7,908 nt of DNA from Candidatus Sumerlaeota bacterium (lineage in GTDB: Bacteria; CG03; SLGR01), in NCBI GenBank assembly GCA_007136585.1, contig SLGR01000053.1, forward strand, positions 1 through 7,908, given 5' to 3'. The notes beneath the pieces are model-generated. The model was not told the origin of the DNA. It worked only from the letters and a program-made list of their open reading frames with translations, and made no database searches. Positions within the stretch are counted from its first letter, which is position 1, and every line of letters begins with the position of its first letter. Below are positions 1 through 7,908 of the stretch, piece by piece. A program made the position numbers and the translations under genes.

Positions 1-3000
1 ATATCTGCTTTAAATCCTCGTACCTCGGAAGGTTTCCTATGGGCGTGCTTACCGCGCCTACCTCTCCGTTTGCCCTCTTTGCCATCCACCTGTACCAGGC
101 TATGGTGTCTTCCCGGGCGGCCACGGGCTGCCCGGCGCTGTCCTGCAGAAAATAATTTACGCCGAAAACAGCCGGGATATCATCCAGCTTATTTCCGAAC
201 TCAAGGTAATTGCTTATATACCTTCCCAGCGGGACCGACATAAAGTCAATATTTGAGAATGGGCTTATCTTCCTCTGCCCTTCGGCCCCTATTGTCTGGG
301 CCGTTGTGAGAGATTCTATGGAAGCCCCTACCATAACCCCGTGCTCCCAGTCAAAGGCCTCATAGACAAGCGGCATGGTATCAGCGTCCCGCCCCCCGTA
401 AACAAGCATCGAGACCTCGTGCCCTTCGGAGCGATCCCATTCGGGATGCCTGTTTGCAAACTCGTCAAGCGAAGCGGTAAACCTGGAGTTCTTGTTAGAA
501 GGAGCCCCGGTCTCTCCCCTGACCCAGTTTTCGCTTGCGTAATTTATACCTCTTTCAGGGAGCTCTCCGTCCTTTCCGGTCCAGTAGGGCATCCCGTCTT
601 CGCCTTTAAGTATATTTGAGAATATTATCTCCTCTCCATCCTGCAGGGCGTTCCATATCATCGGGTCGTCATCGCTGTTTATTCCGTCTATTATCCCGAA
701 AATACCCGCTTCTGTGTTTACGCCCATCGCACGGACCCGCCCGTCGGCGCCTTCCACCGCCCTTATATAAGCCAGGTCGTCTCCAATCAGGCGGCCGCCT
801 TTAAGCATAGCCGTAGAAGTTTTTCCGCACCCGGACTCAAAAGCACCCAGCACAGTAAGTTCTTCACCGGAATGTTCCAGGTTCATAGTGAACATATGCT
901 CGGCAAGCCAGCCTTCATCTACCGCATATTTTATAGCCAGCCTGTGGGCCAGTTTTTTGAGTCCCAGCGAGTTACCTGCGTACTGTGTATTCATGCTGTA
1001 GACGGTATCGGCATCAAGGTCTATGTAGACTCTCCTGTCATCAAGGTTCTTTGTGGTATTTCTTTCGTCAAGCTCTCCGGCAGAATGGACGAACCTCAGG
1101 AACCTGTCAAGTTCCTCGCCCCTTCTTACAAACTCCTCGTACCCCTGCCTGTAAAGGAGCGAGGCGCTTCTAACCACGTAATAGGAGTCGGTTACCTGCA
1201 CTACAGGGATGCCGAAATCCGAATCCGCGGGCCCAAGTGTTGCGAAATGCACAAGGAGTTCTTTCCCGTCCATTATCCCTGAGCTGATCCGGCTTATCTC
1301 ATCAAGCCCCTCATTTCTTTCAAGGGTATTGAAAGCCCCAAGGGTATCCAGCCTGTCAGCGGGAAGAAGAAGCCGCGTATTCTTATTATCCCGAGCCTGA
1401 TCGCCTGTATTATCAAAATGCACCGTATGACCCTCACGGGCAAGCTCTATCTCCTCTCCGAGCTCTATAGATCTTCTTCTAAGATACTCCGCATCCTCGG
1501 AACTCCCGGTGTTTATGAAAACGCCGGAAGGGCCCATCTGGTTTATCTTATTGTAAAGGAACTCGTATACACCCGGAGACTGTATCCTTTTAAGTTTTCT
1601 GAACTCCGATTCGGGAAGAATCTGCTTTAAAGCCTCCCTGGGAGAAAGTTCAGTCTGCGAGTACTTTAAGAACTCATCATATGTTAAATTCTCACGGATC
1701 CCCTGGTAGGCGGAAGGATGCCTGGATATATCCGGAAAATAATCGCTATCCTGAGTAAGCCCCCCGCAGTTTACTATAACCACCCGGCCGTCTTTGGTTA
1801 ACCCGTAATTCTCTCTCCAGGATATATCGCTGTCAAGTATTCCCCTGCTCCACATATTACGGTTAAGCTCTACAAAGGCCCGGGCGGCCGCCTGCTGGTC
1901 ATCCGCCATACTGAGTGACGTGACCTTATCCTGAACTATAACCAGCGGGTATTCATTGATCTTGCCGTCAATATTAAGCTCCGCGTCACTGAGAATTGTA
2001 AACGGCGCGGTCATCCCTTCAAGATTTTCCAGGGCCAGTCTGTAACCTTGAATAACTTCTTCGGCAAGACTCCGGCTTGTGTAAACTTTCACGACTTTTC
2101 CGGGAAGGGTCTCACTGTCTTGGTAAGTTTCCACCACGGGATAAGTTATGGCATGTTCGGATCTCCGGGGCTCAAGGGAATCAAGAGAAGCGATTTTAAG
2201 AGTTTCCCTAAGAGTTTCTTCAGCATAAGGTGATTTAACTTCCCCGGAAACATCTGCGCTCTCATACACTTCCTGCCTTCTTCTCCTGTCTTCCTGGCGT
2301 TTTATACTCAGGTACCGGGCCTCGGCAAGCTCGTTCATCTTGAACGAGTAGCTCATCTCGTTATCGTACCCCACAAGCATCCTGAATGTATCAGGGGACA
2401 CCTGTCTTATGAAATCCGTGTATATTATTGAGCCTGTACGCTGGCCGCTTATGGTATCCTTCCACAGGTGACGACCGTCTTTATGGCTCTCAGTTCCGAA
2501 TACCTGAAGCACGTCCGGAAACTCCATACCTATACGCGTAATATAGTTAAGGAACGTCTCCGAAGTTACCGCGTACGGAAGCTGTATCTTGAAATCAAAT
2601 ACCGACCCCCCCACTATATCAACCTCGCCGTCCTTTAATCCGGTCGGGGTCCGCGCAGCCGTAAAAAGGGCGTTTATGTCAAGATGCTGTTTTACACCCT
2701 TGGCCGCTCCCGTGGATTTCGGGAAAAGGTGTCCGTAAGTGTGTTTCGAGTCTCCGCCCGTGTACATATGAAAGGTAGTTCCCACAAGCGATATGCGCTC
2801 CACTCCAAACCCGAACATCGAGGAAAGCATCAGCGACAGGTATGAAGCGCCGTTGGTGCTGCACGAGGTCGGCGTAAGGTAGCTGGCTCCCCTTTCCTTC
2901 ACAAAAGGAAGCTTGTGAAGCATCCACCTGCCGAGAAAATGTATACCTCCGCTCAGGGGAAGCAGAAGTTTCTTGGATATCTGCGCCTTCAGATACTCAA

Positions 3001-6000
3001 AATACGCTCCTTCTTCGGGAAGGCGGATCTCCTCCACCTGCCTCAGGAACTCCCTAAGACGTTCAAGCTCGCTGGCGGCGTCAAGTTTATCGGAACCCGA
3101 TTCCAGGGCTTCCACCCCCGCAAGCTCCCATACGGTCGGACCGCTGAGCTTTGTGCCGGAGGACTCTATGGTCCCGTCACCTATCTCAACCCCGCCGGGA
3201 GTAGCGTCGGTGAGCTTCCCGAAATAGTACAGCTCTCCAGAGTCGGATACAAGAAACGGGCGGGGAATATTATCCTGCTCAACCCCAGCCTCTATCAGCC
3301 CCTCCGAAAACTCCGAGACCGCCGTAACGTATATTACCCCCGTTTCCTGGCCGTCAAGCAGTATCCTCACGGGATAGACGCTCTCAATTTGTTCCTCAAC
3401 ACGGTAATCCTGCTGCGCCTTAAGAACGCTCCGGCCTGCTGTAAACTCCAGACGCCCCGAATCTATAAGCCCGGCTATTGTCTCGCGCCCGGTCTCCGTA
3501 TCCAAGTCAAGACGGGAGGTCCTTATCACCTCATCCGAGAACATCTTACGCGCAAGATCCGCCGCAGCCTCCAGCCTCCCGGATTCCGTATCTCCCGCTA
3601 CCCTGCGGGTCCTTACCATGTAACGCCCGTAATAACCTTCCTCACCGCTGTTTATATCAGAGGCCATACGCAGTGCAAGACCCAGCGTGCCTATACGCCC
3701 GGTCCCGTCAAAGGCCTCAAGGGGCTTTTCTGAAGGAAGAACATCAACAGGGTCCGATACCTTAAGATGACGGAAACCCTTTATGAAATTGTCCCGGCTA
3801 AGTATCTCCGAAAGCTGAAGTATATCGTAAGCCCAGCTCTCCTGACCGTACTCACTGTACAGCCCCTCCAAACGGGCCCTCTCACCCGGGCTGAGTTCCG
3901 CCCCCGCCGCCTCAAGCCGACCTATCACTTCATCAGCGGAGGCCCCGTTAAGCTCCAGCGCGTCGGAAGCCCGCGAGGCGGCGTTCAGGCGCTGCGCGTA
4001 ACGCCCCAGTTCAAGACGGATAGGCTCAAATACCGCAGCGTCTCCAAACTGCTCAGCTGCAAGAGCCTCAAGATAACTGAACGCGCCGTGATAAAAACCC
4101 GCTATCTCATCCAGCAGAAGCTCATCCTCCAAAGCTCTCCCGGCGGAACCGTCATGACGCGGTACCGCAAGAATGTATAATAGAAAGGATATCTGCTGCA
4201 GCGTGTTCAGGCTCCCGAAAAAGCTTTCCAGGTTCTCCCCGAATCCCGCCGTCGCCTCTCCCATATCCTTCTCCGATATGAAAAGCCCGAGATCACTGTC
4301 CAGCCTTATACCTTCCGAATCTATCAGCTCAGCAGGGTCTATAAGGGAAACAATATCCCTTAAATCACCGGCACGCCGGGTTTCACCGCGCTGAAACTCC
4401 TCAAATAGAAGGTTCCCGTAATGCCCCAGGGCTCCCAGCGCGGTAGAAGTGTCTTCCGCGCTGAAGCCGCTCCAGTCCGTATCCGGGATAAGTACCGGAG
4501 GAAGCTCCCGGTCAAGAAGTGTGTTCAGGTGCTCAAGGTCATCATAACCGTCATTCACCCAATAATGTGTATGAATAAGAAGATCGCCTTTGCCGGTCTC
4601 TACAGCAACCGCCGAAGACAGGTCAAGCGCTATGAGGCCCATATCCGAGGGATCTATTTCACTTGACCTGCGCTGGTCTTCTATTACTGATACCAGAACC
4701 TCTTCGCCGAACTCCTTGCCGAGATGCACCCAGGCATTGTCATATACATTCCCCAGGTGTTTTATAACCGCCTCGGTAACTTTCTTCTCGTCACCGTCTG
4801 CCTTTTCTATCTCTCTTTTTAAACCGCGGGGAAGATTATCCCTTGAAATAACCGTAGGAACTACAACATAAGCGGTATCCTTGTCCATCCCTTCCGGAAT
4901 CTCCGCATAGTATCCGGCTCCCCTTCTAAGGTCAAGCGCCGCCTCCATATTATACTCATCAACGGAAGTATCCTTCCTCAGCGTTGAGAAGGCCGGGAGA
5001 ACCTTTCCTCCCGGAAAGGCGCTATTTAAAAGACCGGCCATTTCCTCGTAGGCCCTGCGGGTGACAAGGGAACGGATTTCGTTCTTTAACTCAAAAATCC
5101 TGACCTGACCGGGTTCAGCATATTCAAGGTATTCGTGGAATGATTTGCTGCTGCGGGAAAGCGAGTTATGAGCAATAAAGGCCATAAACTCCCCATGTAT
5201 CGCGGAATCTGTGTTATTAAAGGCGTTGTACTCATTAAGCTCGTGGCGGGCAAGGGCGCGGAGATAATCTTCCGCAGACTCAAAACCCGCAGGGGGACCG
5301 CGCAGGTTATGCAGCGCCTCAAGAACAAGACGGTGAACTATAAGAACATTCTCCCCGGAAACTTCGTCAGTTCCGACAGTTGCCAAGCCGTATATATCAT
5401 CAGAAGCAAATACAAGGTTATCAGCCTGGACGCTTACCCGTGCGCCGAGGCCGCTTTCAGACTCAAGGATTTCCAGCATCGGACTCATATATTCAGGTTC
5501 GCTCCCCTTTCTGAGAAGCGCCGCGTCATCAGTTCCCCTTAAGAGGGCCTCAAGGACGTTTTTCGTCACGCCGTAAAGCGATTCGTGCAACTCTATAATC
5601 ATACTGGAAGTGGGATGGGAAACTTTAAGTATCTCAATGGCTCTCTTAATAAGCTCACCTACCCTCTCGCCGAAAGAGACGGGATCCGTAATTCCCAGAA
5701 GCCTCTTGCCTGCCTCCTCGACCCCGTTCAGTCTTTCCGGGGTGGAGGCTTCCATATAAAGCCTGGCGACATCCTCCGTGCCCGAGAGCCTTATAAGAAA
5801 CCAACTCTCGTCTTCAAAAACCACTTTAAGCCCGTCCAGCGTAAGAACCTGTTTTACGCCCTGTTCAATCCCGTAACTCTCAAGTATCTCCCGGGCTTTC
5901 TCAATCTTTCCGGCTTCATCTGTTATCCCGCCTACGCTGTCTATAAGCTCCTGGGTTCCCTTTTTAAGTTCCGGAGTAAGCTCAACGCTGCTCCTGTCCC

Positions 6001-7908
6001 AGTAGAATTTTCCGGTTTTAGCTTCAATTTCCGCCAGGTACTCCGAGAGTGTCTTTCCGGTCTCGGCCATTATCCAGAGCCCGAGGATACCCATTGCTAT
6101 CCCGTCATCCCAGGATTCCGAGAAAATACCGGCCATTACGTGGGCACTCTCCTCGCCGCCGACAAGAACATTCTCCCCTCTCTCCTGCAGTTCAAGCGCG
6201 TGTTCAACAACCCATTTGAAACCTACAGCTTTTTCGTAGACATTTTCTCCGATAAGCTCACCGACCGCGTTTGCGAAATTGCTGGTTCCGACGGATTTTA
6301 CGATATCACCGCTGTACCCCTGCTCGTGAAGAAAGTAGGCAAGGATCCCCAGAAACTGGTTTGAAGCTACCTCGGTTCCGTCCGTCTCCCTGAACCCGAA
6401 TCTGTCGGCGTCTCCGTCTGCGGCTATACCAAGGCCCCTCAGCCCTTCTACGTTCAGCCTGCCCATTTCCTCAAGGAGCAGTGAAAGGCTCCCGGGCTCC
6501 GTGGGGTTGGGGGCTCCGTTTACAAGCGAGAACTCCGGATCGGTGTTATCCGTGTTTATTATTGTAAAGAAATCCCTTCCGGCCTCATCGGCTATCCTTG
6601 TAAAAAGACGGTTCATGTATTCAGAGCCCGTTCCCTGCATCGGATCAAGGACAGTATTAAAATCCGTATTGCTCCTTATGAACTCAACTATAGTTTCCCA
6701 GGCGCCTGCGTCTTTTAAACCCGGTATGATATAACCGTCAATATAACGGTCCAGGACATCACTTAACGGCATCTCATTTATAACCCCGGCCTCAACGGCG
6801 GAATCATAATCAACCGTTCTGTACCTTTCGGCCCTGTTGGCATGCCCGGCTATAACAGATGTAACCTCATCAGGGGCCGGCCCACCGTGTTCCGGAGAAA
6901 ACTTGATCCCGTTATCCATGAACTTGTTGTGGCTGGCCGTAAAGTTTATGACGCCTATAGCATTCTCATCGGAGTTTGCCAGGTACCCCAGAACAGGCGA
7001 GGGAGTGGGTTCTTCCTTAATTATCCGCACGTTTATCCCGTTTCCGGCAAGTATCCTGGCGGTCTCAAGGACGTTCTCCCTGTTGTTGTACCTCGGGTCA
7101 TACCCTACTACAACATAACTCTTCTCAAGAACCTCCGAGGGGGTTTCAGATGTAAGGTATGAGGCTATACCCTGCACGGCCCGGCGGATATTGGGCATAT
7201 GAAAATCGCCTTCCCCGGGACGGTCAAGGACCTGCTCCATGATCTGCCTTATCTTTGACCTCCACCCGGATGTGCCGAACTTTATACTGACCCCGGTTTC
7301 TTCAAGATTCGTTTCCGTCACACTTACTCCCGGAGCAACCTCGGTAATTTCGGGGGTCTCCTCTTCCGCCGGGGCTGTTTCTTCTCTGGTTTCCGGCTCT
7401 ATTATTCTGAAAACCCTGCTTAAAAGAGCGCCGGCTATACTTGAAGCTCCGAGCCAGGCCGAAGCCATACCCATCGGTTCCGTTACAGCAGGTGAGATAT
7501 CAAAGAAGATAGTGCCATAAAAGTACACGGTAAAGAAAACAGTGGCGTAAACAAAGAGGGAATTCGCTATAGCTCCGATTGTCTCTCCTATGTCCCTATA
7601 AGTGACCGCCGGTTTTTCGCGAAGTCTCAATAAATTATCTATAAGATGAACCGGCAGAAACCAGCGCCCAAAAAAAGCTGTGACCGGGTTCATTCCCCGG
7701 AGAGAAAATTCATGAGAAACTTTTATCTGCTCCCATACGGATAATTGAGTTGATTCGGGATCAGCCTCTTCCACGGCGCTCCGATCCTGGGGAACAAATC
7801 GACTTGCGGCGCGCCTCACCAGACCTCTCTCAGCCGGGGAAGCCTCCGTTACATCCTCTCGTTGGAAGAACCTCTCACCCTCGGCAGGGTCCGCAAGGCT
7901 GAGCTCCC
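1..7908 (-). CDS. Giant multidomain protein, partial at both ends: membrane hairpin - phosphohexomutase - unknown - GAPDH-like - kinase-like - GTP-type PEPCK
   Basis: One minus-strand frame is open from 7906 to 2 with no stop codon (no TTA, CTA or TCA in the matching plus-strand triplets), giving 2635 sense codons; start and stop both lie outside. The first Met codon (7693-7691) has protein-like sequence upstream and only a purine run directly against it, so I do not treat it as the start. Domain order is two membrane segments (residues ~112-165), acidic linker (~170-205), phosphoglucomutase/phosphomannomutase (~206-739), unknown region (~740-1395), GAPDH-like (~1396-1864), kinase-like (~1916-2090) and GTP-type PEP carboxykinase (~2110 to edge). 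The enzymes suggest a role in gluconeogenesis and hexose-phosphate supply at the inner face of the cytoplasmic membrane; that joint role is inference. Codon use looks uniform across the frame, with frequent ATA and AGG/AGA, so the gene does not look like a recent patchwork. I know of no standard gene name for such a fusion. Confidence 0.97.
2..1580 (-). other. GTP-type phosphoenolpyruvate carboxykinase domain, C-terminus cut by the window edge
   Basis: About 526 residues follow the GTP-PEPCK family from its N-terminal lobe to TPIGNLPRYEDL (family TPIGYxPKEDAL), leaving roughly the last 60 residues outside. Visible motifs are IPVVQVTDSYYVV; YAGNSLGLKK (982-953) with the metal-ligand Lys; WLAEHM with ligand His at 898-896; P-loop ESGCGKTS (838-815) with the hyper-reactive Cys; GDDLAY (784-767) with ligand Asp; NSRF (490-479); GGR (397-389); and PLVYEAFDWEHGVMVGA. 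PEPCK converts oxaloacetate to phosphoenolpyruvate plus CO2 using GTP, with Mn2+ at the active site, the committing step of gluconeogenesis. In the nucleotide pocket, NWF of the family is NYF (157-149) and the two following Phe residues that clamp guanine are absent. The substrate and metal sites look intact, so activity is plausible with uncertain nucleotide preference. Confidence 0.95.
1640..2161 (-). other. Kinase-fold-like segment, probably degenerate
   Basis: About 174 residues whose motif order resembles the protein-kinase/aminoglycoside-phosphotransferase fold. GKVVKVYT, with Lys at 2089-2087, resembles the VAIK strand. A helix follows (AEEVIQGYRLALENL). YPLVIVQDKV (about 1950-1921) resembles the hinge strand. 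RGILDSDISWRENYGL (1846-1799) resembles the catalytic loop, with candidate Asp at 1834-1832 or 1828-1826 and the metal-ligand Asn at 1810-1808. GRVVIVNCGGLT (1789-1754) sits where the DFG motif would be. There Asp is replaced by Asn and Phe by Cys, so metal binding would be weakened, and the segment is short for a full kinase because the C-lobe after the DFG position is not evident. It could be a pseudokinase or an inactive structural module. The assignment rests on motif spacing only. Confidence 0.4.
2162..2314 (-). other. Basic/acidic linker after the GAPDH-like domain
   Basis: Residues ~1865-1915. It begins with a highly charged basic run (KRQEDRRRRQEVY, about 2302-2264) and continues into acidic and polar sequence. 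It looks like a helix extending from the GAPDH C-terminus followed by a flexible connector to the kinase-like segment. No domain is recognised. Confidence 0.5.
2315..3721 (-). other. Divergent, enlarged glyceraldehyde-3-phosphate dehydrogenase-like domain
   Basis: The C-terminal catalytic half is clear. SCSTNG carries the nucleophilic Cys at 2863-2861 (family ASCTTN); GTTFHMYT carries the general-base His at 2770-2768 (family TTVHAxT); FPKSTGAAKGV (2725-2690) matches the PASTGAAKAV phosphate loop; AARTPT places the phosphate-binding Arg at 2653-2651 (family AFRVPT); and GYDNEMSYS (2371-2345) matches WYDNExGYS. The NAD-binding half is far more divergent. The best candidate for its glycine loop is DGTGRIGTLG (3709-3680, family NGFGRIGR), which puts about 280 residues before the Cys instead of ~150, implying an insertion of ~130 residues and a domain of ~469 rather than ~335. 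The reaction would be reversible oxidative phosphorylation of glyceraldehyde 3-phosphate; coenzyme choice cannot be judged. The catalytic half is near certain as homology, the Rossmann half tentative. Confidence 0.85.
3722..5689 (-). other. Central region of unknown function (~656 residues) in the giant protein
   Basis: Residues ~740-1395, between the mutase and GAPDH-like domains, match no family I can name. Most of it looks alpha-helical, with alternating charged and aliphatic positions and no Cys-rich, ATP-binding or nucleotide-binding motif. A sub-region at about 5460-5100 looks compact: short strands, then ALARHELNEY with HELNE at 5245-5231, then HGEFMAFIAH at 5197-5168. This is vaguely like a zinc-peptidase helix, but the second His of HExxH is Glu. 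A second sub-region (about 4880-4510) has predicted strands around AYVVVPTVIS, MGLIALDLSSAVAV and LLIHTHYW, suggesting an alpha/beta fold. The stretch 4440-3780 is helical, Ala/Leu/Glu-rich and probably a scaffold. It may hold two or three divergent domains; I assign no function. Confidence 0.55.
5690..7291 (-). other. Phosphoglucomutase/phosphomannomutase (alpha-D-phosphohexomutase) domain, complete
   Basis: About 534 residues, slightly longer than the family's usual ~450-480. All four signature loops are present in order: N-terminal IKFGTSGWR (from 7285); phosphoserine loop TASHN with catalytic Ser at 6934-6932; metal loop DGDADRF (6418-6398) with the three Asp ligands of Mg2+; sugar loop GGEESAH (6160-6140); and phosphate-binding loop RLSGTED (5791-5771). 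These enzymes interconvert hexose 6-phosphate and hexose 1-phosphate through a bisphosphorylated intermediate. GTSGWR and VGFKW point to the bacterial PGM/PMM branch rather than GlmM, whose N-terminus normally reads GTDGIRG. An oddity is that the Pro usual after TASHN is Lys. The domain looks catalytically competent; whether glucose or mannose phosphate is preferred cannot be read from the sequence. It sits directly behind the membrane hairpin and linker. Confidence 0.94.
7292..7399 (-). other. Glu/Pro/Thr-rich interdomain linker
   Basis: Residues ~170-205 are almost entirely Glu, Pro, Thr, Ala and Val, with pieces such as TAPAEEETPEITEVAPG. It is a low-complexity, acidic, probably flexible spacer between the membrane hairpin and the mutase domain, which would let the catalytic domain move free of the membrane surface. 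No catalytic motif is seen. Confidence 0.75.
7412..7573 (-). other. Predicted two-helix membrane hairpin
   Basis: Residues ~112-135 (7573-7502) form a strongly hydrophobic, aromatic-rich segment with core LFVYATVFFTVYFYGTIFF and no charged residue. After a nine-residue acidic loop, a second, weaker apolar segment (residues ~145-165, 7474-7412) is rich in Ala, Gly and Met and includes ASAWLGASSIAGALLS. Basic residues precede the first segment and follow the second (SRVFR), while the loop has no Lys or Arg, so both ends should be cytoplasmic with the short loop outside. This would tether the following enzyme domains to the cytoplasmic membrane. The first helix is convincing; the second could instead be a re-entrant or peripheral helix. 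Confidence 0.7.
7574..7906 (-). other. N-terminal charged region of the giant protein (window edge to first membrane segment)
   Basis: Residues 1-111. The first ~65 residues are polar and rich in Glu, Asp, Arg and Ser, look disordered, and match nothing I recognise. A more ordered, amphipathic stretch follows (about 7693-7590) containing NPVTAFFGRWFLPVHLID and then a basic patch, LLRLREKP, just before the membrane. The aromatic/hydrophobic FFGRWFLPVHLID piece could be an interfacial helix lying on the membrane. The basic patch on this side suggests, by the positive-inside rule, that this part faces the cytoplasm. The frame is already open at the window edge, so further domains may precede it. 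Confidence 0.6.

Follow-up and report, generated by a model that had tools for sequence, protein, structure and literature searches.

The window analysed here, the whole of contig C163 (SLGR01000053.1, 7,908 bp), belongs to a MAG (257 contigs, 1.88 Mb in total, 88% complete) from an uncultured bacterium whose small phylum lies close to Elusimicrobiota and Omnitrophota. It contains a single open frame of 2,635 aa (positions 2–7906 on the (-) strand, as are all features given below), which has no stop codon and is open at both contig ends; both ends of the protein are missing, and what the contig shows is an inner stretch of a longer chain. An earlier note on this DNA had described a fusion of phosphohexomutase, glyceraldehyde-3-phosphate dehydrogenase (GAPDH) and PEP carboxykinase (PEPCK) at 2–7291. 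Pfam, NCBIfam and profile comparison agreed that domains derived from these three enzymes lie on one chain, and the range correctly covers the start of the mutase to the contig end, but the frame itself continues to 7906. The first part of the chain is an acidic linker (aa 1–59, 7730–7906) that is 91% identical to C165, another contig of the genome, over 103 bp. Other single-frame contigs have the same linker close to their ends, which is probably why the assembly broke at this point. N-terminal to the mutase, a simple Kyte-Doolittle scan picked out the one hydrophobic, possibly membrane-spanning segment of the window (aa 109–127, 7526–7582).

Enzyme domains of the open frame

The phosphohexomutase occupies aa 206–734 (5705–7291), with Pfam matches to PGM_PMM domains I–IV at aa 208–731 that were far above the cut-offs. 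As in the PGM/PMM superfamily, the four domains with their Ser, metal, sugar and phosphate loops were all present and the four signature motifs were kept (TASHN at aa 323, DGDADR at aa 497, GGEES at aa 583 and RLSGTE at aa 706); no equivalog model predicted the substrate of the fused mutase. Between the repeat module that comes after the mutase (see below) and the GAPDH-like region, aa 952–1399 (3710–5053) matched no recognised domain and showed 59–95% identity per 100-aa block to contig C148 of the same genome, which holds a paralogue of window aa 743–1893 (78% identity). Comparison of aa 743–1893 with this paralogue gave a dN of 0.148 and a dS of 0.764 (dN/dS 0.19), and the corresponding values for the GAPDH-like part were 0.052 and 0.451. 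The low dN/dS points to purifying selection at the protein level both in the domain-less stretch and in the GAPDH-like part, and this substitution pattern indicates that the frame is real, protein-coding and constrained.

The GAPDH-like region (aa 1400–1893, 2228–3709, with the recognised catalytic part at about 2309–2884) gave a weak match to the NCBIfam GAPDH-I model (E = 0.03). When a profile built from the window copy and its paralogue was compared with one built from eleven true GAPDHs, the match had a probability of 92% (E 5.7e-7) and spanned the catalytic domain only, from the active-site cysteine to the C-terminus. In the alignment with GAPDHs, SCxTN (SCSTN, 2852–2866), TTxHxYT (TTFHMYT, 2759–2779), PxxTGAAK and YDNExxYS (YDNEMSY, 2348–2368) were retained and the active-site Cys and His were present, but the S-loop was 12 residues shorter and about 100 extra residues lay in the N-terminal half. 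No profile match was obtained for an NAD-binding N-terminal domain, for which only a GxGRIG-like string at aa 1401 was seen, and an AlphaFold model of the region made with 13 sequences was too poor to use (pLDDT 43). Because of the shortened S-loop we name the region GAPDH-like rather than GAPDH; judged by its sequence, it is a divergent catalytic domain and not a clear GAPDH. The identity given in the earlier note needs correcting in this respect, and a regular stand-alone GAPDH of 351 aa is encoded elsewhere in the same genome.

The visible part of the chain ends with a GTP-dependent PEPCK (aa 2090–2635, 2–1639) that is cut by the contig end and was identified by both Pfam (PEPCK_N at aa 2116–2328 and PEPCK_GTP at aa 2333–2633, far above the cut-offs) and NCBIfam, where it reached 508.4 bits against a cut-off of 504 for the PEPCK-GTP equivalog NF003253 despite its truncated C-terminus. 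The catalytic motifs were kept, including the P-loop with its cysteine (SGCGKT, 818–835), GDD (GDDLA, 770–784) and EHM (890–901). The domain therefore resembles known GTP-PEPCKs (NF003253, PF00821/PF17297) and is set apart by its position as the last visible stretch of a giant chain; elsewhere in the phylum, PEPCK is encoded as a separate protein of about 600–640 aa. No other PEPCK, neither GTP- nor ATP-type, was found above cut-off in the genome, and the fused copy is the only one found, a statement that is provisional because the MAG is 88% complete. In the gene tree the window PEPCK fell among those of the phylum, with a placement lacking resolution and a branch about twice the usual length. 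A single horizontal import was considered and not adopted; the tree groups the domain with PVC-type PEPCKs, but with poor resolution and on a long branch.

Giant frames in the genome and in related lineages

In a survey of 116 contigs of the genome (928 kb), 13 contigs were filled throughout by a single frame (29,659 aa in total) and 14 further frames of at least 1,000 aa ran off one contig end. Frames of at least 1,000 aa totalled 237 kb, a quarter of the surveyed sequence, and the longest one seen (C226) had 6,000 aa and an open start. The 2,984-aa frame of C148 encodes, within aa 110–2984, glutamate dehydrogenase (GDH), an MTTB-like domain, the repeat module, a GAPDH-like domain, GlpX and the start of pyruvate phosphate dikinase (PPDK); no copy of GlpX was found outside this frame in the incomplete genome. 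Other long frames carried peptidase M3 and HEAT repeats (C12), SecA and glycoamylase-like domains (C226), asparaginase and a protein kinase (C13), PPDK/PEP-synthase domains (C115), pyruvate kinase and a cation transporter (C123), GH65 (C106), and SNF2 and topoisomerase domains (C189). The earlier suggestion that further enzymes may lie beyond the visible part is borne out in so far as GlpX, PPDK, pyruvate kinase and GDH sit in sister chains. The unit is no three-enzyme fusion, and a fixed stoichiometry of three enzymes is beside the point, since the set of giant chains joins domains as disparate as SecA, protein kinase and topoisomerase. The earlier note had proposed a check for stand-alone copies, whose absence would support the fusion as the working copy; none was found for PEPCK, but GAPDH (see above) and PGM (478 aa) each have one, and PPDK also occurs as a stand-alone protein (912 aa).

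Several features of the long frames are recorded here in their own right. In C226, SecA-like DEAD, P-loop and wing domains lie at aa 4266–5050, in the C-terminal half of the frame. The topoisomerase domains of C189 are of the eukaryote-type topoisomerase I and share one open frame of 2,233 aa with the SNF2 helicase. An Imm5-like immunity-protein domain was found at aa 110–194 of the giant frame of C93, and a frame with an open start (L185:5363–10441) contains five DUF285 stretches and fn3 domains and is likely to encode a surface protein.

Two frames, one of 1,240 aa from the same family and one of 1,667 aa from the same order, hold the closest relatives of the fused mutase (55–59% identity). 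The 1,667-aa frame is on contig PWOI01000140.1, which was submitted under the name Elusimicrobia bacterium CSSed10_371m, and has a glucosamine-6-phosphate isomerase domain after the mutase. Close relatives were also present in 4 of 285 Omnitrophota genomes, in frames of 3,920, 1,796, 5,843 and 17,444 aa, next to starch synthase, to UDP-glucose pyrophosphorylase, or to alcohol dehydrogenase and HAD domains. The neighbours starch synthase, UDP-glucose pyrophosphorylase and glucosamine-6-phosphate isomerase, like the mutase, act on hexose phosphates or nucleotide sugars. In the 3,920-aa open frame (JAGGWS010000034.1), what look like domain junctions carry many short strings rich in Ser (SSSP, SSSS). 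In the tree, the fused mutases formed one clade of seven members (support 100/100) that spans the phylum of the window and Omnitrophota, apart from the stand-alone mutases. All seven sit in frames of 1,240–17,444 aa, so that the clade, while sharing its domains and motifs with the PGM/PMM superfamily, differs from it in being separate and found only in giant frames. One clade over two phyla, with every member in a long frame, indicates that the giant-chain state of the mutase is old and has been kept.

Repeat module and R[G/A/S]PP tetrapeptides

The mutase is followed by a repeat module (aa 744–951, 5054–5677) with a putative zincin (minigluzincin)-like fold, in which HELNE replaces HExxH. The module recurs in C148, C12, C93, C226 and C255 and in two related genomes, with 26–54% identity over the compared stretch. 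In a profile search of the phylum it was carried by 3 of 16 genomes, all matches lying in frames of at least 1,000 aa. HExx was followed by E or D in 11 of 11 aligned copies and none had HExxH; because HExxE/D stands where peptidases have HExxH, the module was not classed as a peptidase. In two distant Omnitrophota relatives of the module, both HE and the RGPP described below are absent at these positions. The AlphaFold model was confident over most of the module (pLDDT 78 overall). A Foldseek search with it gave no significant match, and the top rows of VIA-align were minimal zinc peptidases, namely selecase (Z 5.5) and abylysin (Z 4.3), values under 8 that may reflect only a common arrangement. 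Other zincins (Ste24, HtpX, BepA and SPRTN) ranked lower, among unrelated rows. The modelled similarity (Z up to 5.5) and the motifs together weakly suggest a zincin.

Within the module lies RGPP (aa 869–872, 5291–5302), a ribosome-arrest tetrapeptide of the RAPP type (PMC12992588), and R[G/A/S]PP is present in most copies of the module. In C148 the tetrapeptide also sits at the junction of GlpX and PPDK (aa 2662), and in the Omnitrophota frame JAGGWS010000034.1 it separates starch synthase from PGM (aa 2920). Frames of at least 1,000 aa in the genome contained 16 R[G/A/S]PP in 78,856 aa (shuffle mean 2.5, maximum 5), compared to 2 in the 2.7-fold larger set of 214,325 aa from ordinary frames (shuffle mean 8.5). 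RGPP alone was found 10 times in the long frames and not once in the ordinary ones; it was likewise absent from 78 control loci of other bacteria (335,171 aa), and 3 copies were counted in 13,697 aa of giant frames from relatives and another 3 in 8,463 aa of those from Omnitrophota. Control tetrapeptides of the form X[G/A/S]PP showed no enrichment in long frames. Outside the modules, 9 copies of R[G/A/S]PP in about 6 independent contexts stood against 2 in 214,325 aa (p = 0.006), and for RGPP the comparison was 4 contexts with none in 549,496 aa (p = 2e-4). This enrichment is post hoc, having been noticed during a search for junction motifs with no prior hypothesis, and all 16 copies lie in frames cut by contig ends, none in the 14 complete frames of at least 1,000 aa.

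In a number of contexts RAPP and RGPP bring ribosomes to a halt, an effect that resists EF-P, and RGPP is the most under-represented tetrapeptide in ten major bacterial groups (PMC12992588). Of the natural RAPP-like sequences tried in E. coli and B. subtilis, however, most failed to cause efficient stalling (PMC10987492). The tetrapeptides share the R[A/G/S]PP core, seen here in sequence alone, with the arrest peptides ApdA and ApdP (PMC10951233, PMC12992588). In those, the motif lies near the C-terminus of small proteins upstream of regulated genes, whereas here it recurs inside giant enzyme chains.

The module RGPP may simply be structural, which counts against pausing, as do the inefficient stalling of most natural RAPP-like sequences and the lack of RGPP in the two Omnitrophota relatives of the module. 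A broader reading, that R[G/A/S]PP serves purely as a turn in the structure of the module and of certain helical repeats and does not affect translation, is a serious contender that falls somewhat short of even. It is favoured by the occurrence of 7 of the 16 copies in homologous modules, by three more pairs that are near each other or in related contexts, and by the AlphaFold model, which places RGPP in a loop between helices; the copies outside the modules and the lack of enrichment of other X[G/A/S]PP argue against it.

Proposed function of the giant chains

We lean, with moderate confidence, towards the window being a piece of a giant multienzyme protein whose domains work as enzymes on one chain, possibly with programmed translation pauses. 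The domains would act in the cytosol, so that steps from PEP to hexose-1-phosphate would be made and kept together, and short hydrophobic segments would probably tether the chain to the inner membrane. More tentatively, R[G/A/S]PP in modules and junctions may pause the ribosome, so that an upstream domain could fold, or a hydrophobic segment insert, before the next part is made, much as SecM is released by pulling force (PMC10951233). In favour of this reading are the intact motifs of PGM and PEPCK, the PEPCK and GlpX copies found nowhere else in the genome, the purifying selection, the mutase clade over two phyla with its neighbouring sugar enzymes, and the excess of R[G/A/S]PP in long frames. 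Against it speak the stand-alone PGM, GAPDH and PPDK, since those fused copies may have another role, the GAPDH-like domain, with neither a normal S-loop nor a recognisable NAD domain, the long branches of the fused PEPCK and PGM, and the SecA, kinase, topoisomerase and HEAT domains of the chains, which do not form one pathway. The more specific proposal that the giant multienzymes are the working gluconeogenic copies, built with recurring arrest tetrapeptides as checkpoints for folding or insertion, seems doubtful to us.

The chain could instead be a polyprotein, made whole and then cut into enzymes by zinc peptidase domains of its own or by the zincin-like modules. In line with this, such modules repeatedly come after enzymes, true HExxH motifs (such as HEVAHN, HELGHW and HEIAHW) numbered 12 in the 78,856 aa of long frames and 7 in the 214,325 aa of ordinary ones (about 4.6 times as many per residue), and R[G/A/S]PP marks the GlpX/PPDK and starch synthase/PGM junctions. 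However, in this lineage the modules carry HExx[E/D] in place of HExxH, their structural similarity is weak (best Z 5.5), cleavage sites are not known, and Pro-Pro is usually a poor protease site. We regard a polyprotein as rather unlikely.

We consider it unlikely, on balance, that the enzyme folds have been taken over for non-catalytic use in a predatory cell, as modules for the surface, for adhesion or for acting on prey, along the lines proposed for giant ORFs of Omnitrophota, which are linked to attachment and predation (PMC10066038). The stand-alone copies of PGM, GAPDH and PPDK, the strongly altered GAPDH-like domain and the fn3, glycoamylase-like and GH65 domains of other frames would fit such a use, and recruitment without catalysis, already raised in the earlier note, finds some backing in the stand-alone PGM and GAPDH. 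Yet the catalytic residues were kept in the fusion: the motifs of PGM and PEPCK are intact despite deep divergence. Furthermore, PEPCK and PGM require cytosolic substrates, no second copy of PEPCK or GlpX was found, and the window, outside which the N-terminus of the protein lies, contains no signal peptide. An artefact of assembly or binning, or a pseudogene, which a draft MAG and contig ends inside repeats might suggest, was rejected as highly improbable on the 2,635 codons without a stop, the dN/dS of 0.19 and the recurrence of similar frames in two related genomes and four Omnitrophota genomes.

Giant ORFs as such are known from this part of the tree (PMC10066038, PMC12057145), including one of 39,678 aa in the Omnitrophota bacterium Velamenicoccus archaeovorus (PMC10066038), and have been described as domain-poor or as related to carbohydrates, adhesion or predation (PMC10066038, PMC12057145). 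The frames reported here resemble them in their very long single frames, the small genomes, the same wider group and the hydrophobic, possibly membrane-spanning segments, as well as in the SecA domain of C226. They differ in containing enzymes of central carbon metabolism whose catalytic motifs are intact, and for two of these enzymes no other copy was found. The contig is 7.9 kb long and open at both ends, compared to the >20 kb mark for giant ORFs, and the same PGM clade reaches a frame of 17,444 aa in Omnitrophota. The TPI-GAPDH fusion likewise joins central-carbon enzymes in one chain, but with two domains for two neighbouring steps, whereas the chain described here is far longer, contains repeat modules and joins non-neighbouring steps. 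In the literature searched, there was no report of central-carbon enzymes with intact motifs or of arrest motifs in giant ORFs; West-Roberts et al. 2023, which lay outside this search, may cover part of this. Within that scope, the enzyme contents and the R[G/A/S]PP motif are what is new.

If central-carbon enzymes do work within giant ORFs, genes are being overlooked when the metabolism of these lineages is annotated, and bacteria would have a new way of organising enzymes. With the tetrapeptide that bacterial proteomes avoid most so abundant in these chains, the question of how the ribosome produces and folds thousands of residues in one chain becomes testable.
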